Source: Verrucomicrobiota bacterium
Lineage (GTDB): Bacteria > Verrucomicrobiota > Verrucomicrobiia > Limisphaerales > UBA9464
Assembly (NCBI GenBank): GCA_008933025.1
Contig: WBXI01000021.1
Span: 1-32,185 of the forward strand
Direction: 5' to 3'
Length of the DNA stretch: 32,185 bases
Shown here: piece after piece, positions 27,052-30,679 of the stretch
Layout of the letters: each line of letters begins with the position of its first letter
Numbering within the stretch: the stretch's first letter is position 1
Notes under the pieces: generated by a model
What the model saw: only the letters and a program-made list of their open reading frames with translations
What the model was told of the DNA's origin: nothing
Database searches by the model: none
Translations under genes and position numbers: made by a program

Positions 27052-29112
27052 CTAGGGCTTCGGGGGTTGCGCGGGCGTGGGCTTGGCCTCCTCCGTGGCC
27101 GGTGCCGGGTTGGGACGCGGCACGAGGCCGTAGCGCTTCATGAGGATCGGATCCATCCGGAATAGGCTCGGATTCGACGGGGTCCGCGGCGCGGGCGGGG
27201 GGTTGACGACGCGGAAGGCTTCGTCGCCATGCTCGCGGAGCAGCGCTGCCGCGATCTCGCGCGGCGACATGCCGGCCCCGGCTGCAGCGGCTTCGCGGAC
27301 GCCGGGCGGCAGCGTGCCATTCGCCAGCCCCTGCCGGACGGCCGCTTCGAGTTGGTCCCATTGCTGGTTCAGCGCCGCAGCCCGTTCCGCCGCGGCAATG
27401 CGCCGGACGGCCAGGCTGGCGTTGCCGTAGGGGATGCAAGTCACCAGGGCGGTGGTCGCGGCGACCGCCAGCCAGTTCCGGACAACGCTTCCGGAAGGAA
27501 CGGAGGACCGGCGATGGTTGCGGCGGGCAAATTCCAGCAACGCAGCGAGCCAGAGGACGACGGCCACGCCGATCATGTAGAGGGTGCGGATGATGGTCGC
27601 GGCGAAGACCACCGTCCCGGGGCGGATGCCGACGGTCAGACGGTCGAAGGCGTCGATGGCGAACGCGACGAAGGTTCCGACCGCGATGGCCGCGCCGATG
27701 GCGGCGACGCCGGCCTTGAGCGTGGTGCGGGAGAGCGAGGAGGCGAGAATGGAAAGGGCCAGCAACCCGAGCGCGGCCCCTGAGTAGGCAGCCAACGCTC
27801 CGGGCGGCGCGCCCTCCAGCAACTTCGCGAAGCGCCCGCTTCCAAGTGCCACGCGAACCAACAGCACGGGCCAAACGCAGCCGACCAAAAGGGCCACGCC
27901 GACGGTGACGGCCAGTTTGACCCACCATTGGCGGCGCAGGGTGGCGGGTTGCGTGAGTTGCCAGTCGTGCGTGCCGATCTGTCGTTCCTCGGCGACGCAG
28001 GCGGCGCCGGTTCCCAGCAGGCATACCACGGCGGCCATCCCCATGAAGACGACGGCGGCGAGCAGCGGGAGTTCTTTCTCGTTGCCGGGCCGTTCGGTGA
28101 ATCGCCAACCGGCGGCGAGCAAGGCGATGCCGGCCATCAGCAGCGCGGTGACCCACGGGATGGACTGGAGGCGGAGTTCCTTGCGGACGAGATGGCCGGT
28201 CGGGCCGGTGCCGAACGCCCGGGCGAGCCATGCCGCAGGGCGGCCGAGTGACACCAGGCCCGCGCCTGCGTTGGCTTGAGCGCCGTCGGTGGCGTCGAGG
28301 CGCGCGAACGTCCGCCATCCCAGCACGGCGCAAGCGACGGCATAGACCCATGCGGTGGACGCGACCACGGACCATTCGGCGTCCGGCGGGAGTTCCGGAA
28401 GATCGAGAAGCCAACGGCAGAACCGGACGGATTCCGTCAGTGCCGCGTACGCCATCAGGGGAATGGCCACGGTGAACGTCGCCGCCGCGATGGTCGTGCG
28501 CGTCAGCAGCGCGTAGAGCGGTGCCGACGCGAGGACCAGGAGTCCCAGGGCGGCGCCGATCCCGCAGGTCCCGAGGAAATTCCTCGGGGTGGCGACCTGA
28601 ACGTCGGTGGCCAAGAACGAGAGGACCATGTTGGCGATCGCGATCCCGAGCAGCACGGCGAGCACGGCGTGTTTGCGTCGGTAGATGGCGGCGCGGGAGC
28701 GGGGTTGCACGAGCAGGGTGGCCAGCGTCCGGTTCTCGAACTCGGATGCGAAAAGTCCCGCGCCCATCAGGAGGCAACCGATCGGGAAGCCCCACAGGAG
28801 GGCCGGCGCTTCGTCCGCCGCGAGGGCGGCGCACGCGGGACCGATCATGGCGATCAGGAACCCGGGCATGAGTCCGCGGCATTCCTTCATCCATTGGAGG
28901 ACCGGTGCGGGCGCGGTGCCCGACCGCCACCAAACCCACGGCGCGACGAGCGCGAGCGCCAGGACGAATTGCAGCACCTGGGCCGCATTCAAAGGCGACC
29001 CCGACGGTTGGGCCGCCACGCAGATCCGGGCAAGGGCCGGCAGGGGCAACAACAGCCATGCGGGGTGGAAGCTGTTCCGGCGGGATGGTTGGCCGAGGGT
29101 CTGGGCGTCCAT
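27052..29112 (-). CDS. ABC-2 type transporter permease, two permease halves fused, with C-terminal extension
   Basis: 686-residue integral membrane protein, about twice the usual permease length. Two halves can be seen, each with about six helices. Each has an ABC-2-type cytoplasmic motif: SEFENRTLATLLVQPRSRAAIYRRK in the first (about 124-148) and VAEERQIGTHDWQLTQPATLRRQWW in the second (about 370-395). After the last helix (near 575) about 110 mostly hydrophilic residues follow, containing MSPREIAAALLREHGDEAFRVV and a Pro-rich end. The upstream neighbours are a matching ATPase (25-base gap) and a YtrA-like regulator. By analogy with ytr-type operons it may take part in cell-envelope or antimicrobial response (inference); the substrate is unknown. 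Confidence 0.88.
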   Translation of the reverse strand: MDAQTLGQPSRRNSFHPAWLLLPLPALARICVAAQPSGSPLNAAQVLQFVLALALVAPWVWWRSGTAPAPVLQWMKECRGLMPGFLIAMIGPACAALAADEAPALLWGFPIGCLLMGAGLFASEFENRTLATLLVQPRSRAAIYRRKHAVLAVLLGIAIANMVLSFLATDVQVATPRNFLGTCGIGAALGLLVLASAPLYALLTRTTIAAATFTVAIPLMAYAALTESVRFCRWLLDLPELPPDAEWSVVASTAWVYAVACAVLGWRTFARLDATDGAQANAGAGLVSLGRPAAWLARAFGTGPTGHLVRKELRLQSIPWVTALLMAGIALLAAGWRFTERPGNEKELPLLAAVVFMGMAAVVCLLGTGAACVAEERQIGTHDWQLTQPATLRRQWWVKLAVTVGVALLVGCVWPVLLVRVALGSGRFAKLLEGAPPGALAAYSGAALGLLALSILASSLSRTTLKAGVAAIGAAIAVGTFVAFAIDAFDRLTVGIRPGTVVFAATIIRTLYMIGVAVVLWLAALLEFARRNHRRSSVPSGSVVRNWLAVAATTALVTCIPYGNASLAVRRIAAAERAAALNQQWDQLEAAVRQGLANGTLPPGVREAAAAGAGMSPREIAAALLREHGDEAFRVVNPPPAPRTPSNPSLFRMDPILMKRYGLVPRPNPAPATEEAKPTPAQPPKP

Positions 29113-29137: not shown

Positions 29138-30037
29138 TCAAACCACCGGGTCGCCCACGGTCGCGACGACGATCTCCTCGAGCGACAGGGACTCGGTCTC
29201 GATGGAGGCGGGGCGATGGGAACGGAGCCGTTCGAGGATGGCGTCGCCGTCGCCGTTCACCACCAATTCGAGATCGCGGCCTTCGCGCCGGAACGATTTG
29301 GCGCCGGAGAACGCGGAAGCAGGCGGGGGGTCGCCCTCGAACCGGGCCCGGAACCGACGGAACTTCGTGCGCGCCTCGTCGGCATCGGCGGTGAGCACCG
29401 CGCGGCCCTGGTCGAGAATGGTGAAACGGTCGATGAGCCCCTCGAACTCGGCGATGAGGTGGGTGGAGACGAAAACCGTGCGCCGGCCGGGTGCGACCTC
29501 CTGATAGGCGCCGATGATGGTCCGGATGAACTCCCGTCGCACGAGGGGGTCGAGACCCGAGGTGGGTTCGTCGAGGACGAGGAGTTCGGGTTCGGAGGCG
29601 ATCGCGCCCGCCAAGGCAAGCTGGGTGCGCTGGCCCTTGCTGAGTCCCGAGGTGGGTGCGGCGGGATCGAGTTGGAACCGCGCGAGCAGACGGGCCTCGA
29701 TGTCGCGGTTCCAGCGTGGCCGGAAGCTGGCCTGGTAATCGAGGGTCTCGCGCACCGACATCCAGGGGTAGAACGCGACGAAATCGGGGACATAGGCGAG
29801 GCGCGACTTGACCTCGGCCTCGTCGCGTCGCGGGTCGAGACCGAAGACGCGCACGCTGCCGGCCTGGGGGCGCAGCAGGTTGAGCAGGCACTTGAGGGTC
29901 GTCGTCTTGCCGGCCCCGTTGCGACCGAAGAATCCGTAGCAGCAGCCCGGCTCGACGGTGAGCGAGAGTCCGTGGAGCGCTTCGTGCCGACCGTAGCGGT
30001 GGACGAGGTCCTGGATCTGGATGGCGGGAGGGATCAT
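29138..30037 (-). CDS. ABC transporter ATP-binding protein
   Basis: Cytoplasmic ATPase of 299 residues that powers the neighbouring permease. Motifs in order: Walker A GRNGAGKTTT (about 39-48), Q-loop replaced by the LAYVPDFVAFYPWMSV region, signature LSKGQRTQLALAGAI, Walker B LLVLDEPTSGLDPLVRREF, and H-loop VFVSTHL. The C-terminal about 80 residues form the variable domain of the CcmA/YtrB-type exporters. The glutamine expected in the Q-loop (YVPQ/YLPQ) is Asp here (YVPD), a variation also known in YtrB-like subfamilies. ATG 30037 is preceded by a 56-base gap from the regulator stop; the open frame further upstream is not coding-like. Confidence 0.94.
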   Translation of the reverse strand: MIPPAIQIQDLVHRYGRHEALHGLSLTVEPGCCYGFFGRNGAGKTTTLKCLLNLLRPQAGSVRVFGLDPRRDEAEVKSRLAYVPDFVAFYPWMSVRETLDYQASFRPRWNRDIEARLLARFQLDPAAPTSGLSKGQRTQLALAGAIASEPELLVLDEPTSGLDPLVRREFIRTIIGAYQEVAPGRRTVFVSTHLIAEFEGLIDRFTILDQGRAVLTADADEARTKFRRFRARFEGDPPPASAFSGAKSFRREGRDLELVVNGDGDAILERLRSHRPASIETESLSLEEIVVATVGDPVV

Positions 30038-30093: not shown

Positions 30094-30504
30094 TCAGGGG
30101 GTGCGGTCGTTTCCGGATTGGCGTCCGCGGAACGCGGCGAGGCGTTCGCGGAGAAGCGAAAGGAGTTCGGCGTCGGGAATCTGGAGGTGGTGGGCCTGGA
30201 CGATGACGGCGTCGAGTTCGGAGGCGAGGCGTTCGGACCGGACGGCGTGACGGAGGGGCGACGCGGTCTGGGCGCGGAGGTAGCAACCGGCACCGTGCCG
30301 GTTTTCGACGACGCCTTCCGACTCGAGTTCGGCGTAGGCCCGGGCGGCGGTGTTGCGATTGATGCGGAGTTCCTCGGCGAGGGCTCGGACGGACGGAAGG
30401 GCCTCGCCGGGCCGGAGCGTGCCGGCGGCCGCCGCGGCCTTCACCTGCTGGACGATCTGCAGGTAAACCGGGACCCCCGACTTGAAATTGATGTGCAGCA
30501 TCAT
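30094..30504 (-). CDS. YtrA-subfamily GntR transcriptional regulator
   Basis: 136 residues. Winged-helix GntR domain at about 8-80: GVPVYLQIVQQVKAAAAAGTLRPGEALPSVRALAEELRINRNTAARAYAELESEGVVE is the full DNA-binding signature (positions about 10-68, seen in pieces such as LPSVRALAEELRINRNT). The C-terminal part is short (about 55 residues), as in the YtrA subfamily, whose members repress adjacent ABC transporter operons and themselves. First gene of the operon. Two adjacent ATGs (30504 and 30501) can serve as start. A perfect palindrome 14 bases upstream of the ATG is its likely operator. Confidence 0.94.
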   Translation of the reverse strand: MMLHINFKSGVPVYLQIVQQVKAAAAAGTLRPGEALPSVRALAEELRINRNTAARAYAELESEGVVENRHGAGCYLRAQTASPLRHAVRSERLASELDAVIVQAHHLQIPDAELLSLLRERLAAFRGRQSGNDRTP

Positions 30505-30517
30505 CGGAACCGTTTCA

Positions 30518-30543
30518 GACTGTCATAGGACACTATGACAGTC
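30518..30543 (-). promoter_or_regulatory. Palindromic operator of the GntR-ABC operon
   Basis: Perfect 11-bp inverted repeat: GACTGTCATAG (30518-30528) and CTATGACAGTC (30533-30543), separated by four bases. Its nearer edge lies 14 bases upstream of the regulator ATG. A TTGACT hexamer (30540-30545 on the minus strand) overlaps the upstream arm and could be a -35 element, so a bound repressor would block RNA polymerase. Size and position fit autoregulation by a dimeric YtrA-like GntR protein. No matching palindrome was noticed elsewhere in the window. Confidence 0.85.
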
Positions 30544-30679
30544 AAGGGTCGTGTTTCGGGGGTTGGCGGGGGGCGCCGGGCGGCGATGGGTGGACAACGG
30601 ATGCCCGGTTCTACCCCGTTGCCGAGAGGGAACCGGCTTGACGATGCGAGGGGCTTATCGGGCAGACTCCGCCCGTCCC

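Follow-up and report, generated by a model that had tools for sequence, protein, structure and literature searches.

A conserved 24-bp site directly upstream of a gntR gene is, with a probability of about 0.9, the operator of the YtrA-like GntR regulator that this gene encodes, which would repress gntR itself together with the ABC transporter genes of the same operon; binding, repression, promoter use and the inducer are what we infer for this system. The site lies in a stretch of 32,185 nucleotides from a Verrucomicrobiota bacterium, the whole of which is referred to below as the window.

The palindrome in the window

The window contains a perfect inverted repeat, GACTGTCATAG-GACA-CTATGACAGTC, at positions 30518 to 30543 (no strand assigned), with arms of 11 bp and a loop of 4, exactly as described in the original prediction, which had proposed an operator on the grounds that the repeat is long and perfect and stands at an autoregulated promoter. 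It is located 13 nt 5' of the first ATG of gntR (30504, minus strand) and shares bases with a TTGACT hexamer on the minus strand (30540 to 30545). It is indeed the longest perfect inverted repeat in the window (arms of 11, with loops of up to 10 allowed). However, windows shuffled with a first-order Markov model contained 0.42 repeats of this size (11 bp or more per arm, loop no longer than 10), versus 1 observed, so that length by itself is not significant. The perfection turned out to be incidental. Many of the orthologous sites are imperfect palindromes and the outermost G-C pair, the 11th arm pair, is not common to the relatives and is supplied by the -35 hexamer. The significance of the palindrome comes from its position and conservation, and it is conservation, not length, that upholds it as an operator.

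The conserved part is 24 bp long, ACTGTCATAGTGTCCTATGACAGT (30519 to 30542, minus strand). Based on column conservation it comprises a promoter-distal half-site ACTGTC (30537 to 30542), a promoter-proximal, gene-side half-site GACAGT (30519 to 30524) and a central TGT (30530 to 30532), all on the minus strand.

Conservation upstream of orthologous gntR genes

The regions upstream of gntR homologs were taken from 39 related genomes and from a scan of genome contigs. In all, 56 distinct sites from Verrucomicrobiota and Acidobacteriota have the 24-bp consensus ACTGTC(A/C)TANTGT(C/A)(C/A)TA(T/G)GACAGT, which is found just 5' of the start codon in nearly all orthologous gntR genes. In the first ortholog set, the motif was present within 150 nt upstream of 45 of the 48 distinct orthologs, the exceptions being L005, L018 and L065. 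In L005, an additional small gene separates gntR from a perfect site, which lies 347 nt upstream. L065 is located behind a small membrane-protein gene at the start of a contig and comes from the same sequence as L171, in genome G366; the motif of this genome (L117) is at the end of another contig, and the two contig ends may adjoin. Upstream of L018, a distant homolog with 47% identity, no recognizable site was found, and the diverged homolog L180 has a degenerate site only. Both cases count against the operator model, as do the poor match of the candidate -10 hexamer and the negative promoter scan described below. In addition, 9 further genomes, chosen because they hold the ortholog, contain one site each. 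The operator, in the promoter register of the window, was also seen in an Archangium sp. metagenome-assembled genome (L054) on a contig binned as Myxococcota, which may reflect either horizontal transfer or misbinning.

The association with the regulator was also found in a scan of 384 genomes of the class for the 24-mer pattern, which allowed 2 mismatches at most and took no account of gene positions. The motif was detected in 22 of these genomes, at one place in each, and the same pattern read backwards gave 3 matches in the same scan. At 20 of the 22 places a gntR homolog began 7 to 20 nt further on, in the same orientation; another (L116) preceded an 88-aa gene with gntR behind it, and the last (L117) was the contig end mentioned above. 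An independent search of these 384 genomes for the gntR ortholog (threshold E <= 1e-28) found it in 25, including all 22 motif genomes. The motif is thus present in 22 of 25 genomes with the ortholog and in none of the 359 without it (Fisher p = 7e-33, ignoring relatedness). The three ortholog genomes that the scan missed were G014, with a 3-mismatch site (L009), G370, whose site (L172) has 2 mismatches in a 22-mer, and G358, which carries the degenerate site of L180. The palindrome is therefore kept with the regulator in relatives, and the original prediction, which a lack of this conservation would have refuted, survived the test; the 24-bp consensus, common to the orthologous sites and co-occurring with the regulator, is a candidate binding motif for this regulator clade. 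The genome of the window (assembly 86% complete) contains a single operator site even when up to 3 mismatches are allowed, and a larger regulon was rejected for this reason.

The regulator and its operon

The gntR gene (30094 to 30504, minus strand) encodes a protein of 136 aa with a GntR-type N-terminal winged helix-turn-helix (PF00392, E 8.1e-17, 61 bits versus a cut-off of 27). In the predicted structure (mean pLDDT 85), the wing is followed by helices 86-106 and 111-133, i.e., the reduced, two-helix C-terminal part of ~50 aa expected of YtrA proteins. Structurally, it is closest to small GntR proteins, among them the YtrA-type structures 2du9 from Corynebacterium glutamicum and 6sbs (YtrASa), with a whole-length TM of about 0.55, which leaves the C-terminal helices without a fixed orientation, and the sequence matches are likewise small GntR proteins. 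The site, ACTGTC-N12-GACAGT, is a long palindrome of ~24 bp whose GT and AC lie well away from the centre, and gntR shares its operon with ABC transporter genes, both as in the YtrA subfamily. According to the structural model, the regulator has YtrA-subfamily anatomy, and its size, predicted secondary structure and operon bear out the proposed YtrA-like identity.

The gene order is gntR, ABC transporter ATPase (29138 to 30037, minus strand; PF00005) and ABC-2 type permease (27052 to 29112, minus strand; PF12679). In nearly all relatives whose available sequence extends far enough, the ATPase gene comes after gntR, and the permease gene is present in many relatives. In some relatives (L005, 1184-1420; L116, 1213-1479; L006, L007, L035 and L038), genes for small single- or two-pass membrane proteins are inserted ahead of gntR, on its operator side, or behind it, on the side of the ATPase gene; the operon in the window lacks them.

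Putative promoter registers

The -35-like hexamer TTGACT (30540 to 30545) overlaps the left arm of the operator, and its TTGAC is invariant and in the same register in the 26 distinct sites that make up the set of the window's clade. At 17 bp after TTGACT these sites have a hexamer CASTNT across the right arm, which in the window is CAGTCT (30517 to 30522, minus strand), a candidate -10 with a weak match to the consensus. A consensus promoter scan of the window found no promoter. In another 26 sites TTGAC[N] is located 12 to 15 nt, mostly 13 nt, further upstream, and at the usual spacing the -10 hexamer of this second register would be TAnTGT in the operator centre; the remaining 4 of the 56 sites belong to neither group. 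The final T of CASTNT is present in 21/26 sites of the window's register versus 3/26 of the second (p = 8e-7, relatedness ignored), and the registers closely follow the regulator tree, in which many forks are unresolved. Judging from these sequence patterns, one operator appears to be combined with two promoter registers, either with TTGACT and CASTNT over both arms, or with TTGACA 13 nt upstream so that the operator would cover the -10. We also considered the central TAnTGT as the -10 in the window, but this fits the second register, with TTGAC 16-19 bp upstream, and the window's set has no TTGAC there. A transcript from the putative promoter would have a leader of only about 5-8 nt, and no Shine-Dalgarno-like sequence precedes the gntR start, either in the window (30504) or in relatives.

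In the mechanism that we propose, a dimer of the 136-aa protein would bind ACTGTC-N12-GACAGT with one winged helix per half-site. In the window's clade, the two arms overlap with TTGACT as the putative -35 and with CASTNT as the candidate -10, so that the bound protein would exclude RNA polymerase, and the single operon of gntR, ABC ATPase and permease would be repressed, gntR itself included. Release would be brought about by a signal, perhaps the substrate of the exporter or envelope stress.

The operator centre

The outer half-sites covary, with A..T or C..G pairs in 39 of 56 sites against 29.6 expected (shuffle p 0.006, relatedness ignored). The picture of a simple palindrome thus holds for the arms and needs correction for the centre, which is asymmetric and conserved, with each column of TGT kept in 24-26 of 26 sites in both registers. 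This conservation counts against a simple dimer, as a wide palindrome needs no such element. A full third half-site was rejected, because the centre covaries with neither arm (complementary to the right arm in 11/56 sites, with 22.5 expected, and no covariation with the left arm either); for the same reason we place the flanking base outside the half-site pattern and only TGT itself within it.

Sites of the CTGTTTGGGTGTTATCAAACAG type, again spaced TGT-N5-TGT-N6-ACA, accompany a paralogous YtrA-like regulator that the same genomes encode (L134 at G000:C8:33000-36500, L019-L026 and L135-L148). Because this spacing was the search pattern, its frequency is informative and its exactness is not. 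The palindrome of the paralog, CTGTTTGGGTGTTATCAAACAG and variants, has TTGAC upstream and the same layout as the operator in the window with different bases, and the recognition helix of the paralogous protein reads NPTT, versus NRNT in the window's protein. Further small GntR genes (L149, L150, L151 and L153) have wide palindromes of the ACTGTG...TACAGT type upstream, apparently a third operator variant, and a homolog from the Firmicutes species Oscillibacter valericigenes (L072) is preceded by ACTGTATATACTGTACATGTACAGT, a 25-bp version that also has a central CTGT.

A tentative reading, which we consider possible but rather doubtful, is that TGT-N5-TGT-N6-ACA forms three recognized elements and that the regulator contacts the central TGT, either by a third protomer or by a second dimer that occupies an overlapping, more compact dyad. 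The retention of TGT in the two registers and in the operator of the paralog would then be accounted for. If true, three elements, together with a 13-nt register change under a fixed operator, would make a little-described operator architecture.

Alternative explanations

The site might be that of another transcription factor, one controlling either the gntR operon or the divergent leucine-rich repeat (LRR) gene, which starts 137 nt from the palindrome. This is improbable given the strict co-occurrence of motif and regulator in the 384 genomes, with one site per genome, and given that the paralogous regulator has its own, different palindrome in the same layout. Moreover, among the relatives the LRR gene is shared by the closest one alone (L002/L032), which means that the operator goes with gntR, and control of the LRR gene was rejected on the basis of this non-conserved neighbourhood.

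That the bound regulator turns the operon on, as an activator instead of a repressor, has somewhat less in its favour still. An operator that overlaps a promoter is the usual position for a repressor, and in every register seen the site overlaps putative promoter hexamers or the -10 region. Also, the characterized YtrA-type proteins repress (PMC8060467, PMC6746942, PMC5080381).

It is very unlikely that the repeat acts as an RNA hairpin in the gntR leader transcript, whether by attenuation, by termination or by stabilizing the RNA. The strand does fold well in the window (-16.6 kcal/mol, z -3.5), but relatives keep the sequence while the pairing is broken in many sites (GTCACT or GACACT opposite ACTGTC), and no T-run follows the repeat; this loss of pairing led us to reject the hairpin. 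In the window's register, the putative transcription start is downstream of the repeat, which would then be untranscribed. A functionless chance palindrome, conceivable from the shuffle expectation alone, is refuted by the conservation and co-occurrence, and its likelihood is negligible.

Relation to known YtrA systems

The arrangement resembles that of Bacillus subtilis YtrA, a small GntR regulator encoded in an ABC operon that is preceded by a wide inverted repeat. The sequence bound by this protein is AGTGTA-13bp-TACACT (PMC8060467), and YtrA sites are typically 24 bp (PMC6746942). In contrast, the half-sites described here are ACTGTC/GACAGT with a 12-bp gap, the operon has one ATPase and one permease, the phyla are different, and there is one site in the genome instead of the two operons of B. 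subtilis. PmtR of the Staphylococcus aureus pmt operon is likewise a YtrA-type regulator encoded first in an ABC exporter operon and binds its own promoter region, but the window's protein scores only 62.3 bits on the NCBIfam PmtR model (NF047563; curated cut-off 200). YtrASa of Sulfolobus acidocaldarius is an autorepressor with a very small regulon and extra half-site elements beside the main dyad, although its core is a compact 14 bp, compared to the 24-bp wide dyad here. In the comparative study of Suvorova et al. 2015 (PMC4494728), most YtrA regulons consist of one ABC operon with one long palindromic site, as in the window, and the table of analysed regulators has no Verrucomicrobiota and no Acidobacteriota. 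In the open literature searched, no description of an ACTGTC/GACAGT motif with a GntR regulator was found.

Judged by sequence comparison, the operator is real and useful, familiar in kind, and shared across Verrucomicrobiota and Acidobacteriota, and it provides a specific, testable DNA motif for this regulator clade in the two phyla. The clade also forms a clean natural series, in which the operator is kept and the promoter appears to slide by 13 nt, and it offers a paralog operator of equal layout with other half-site bases.
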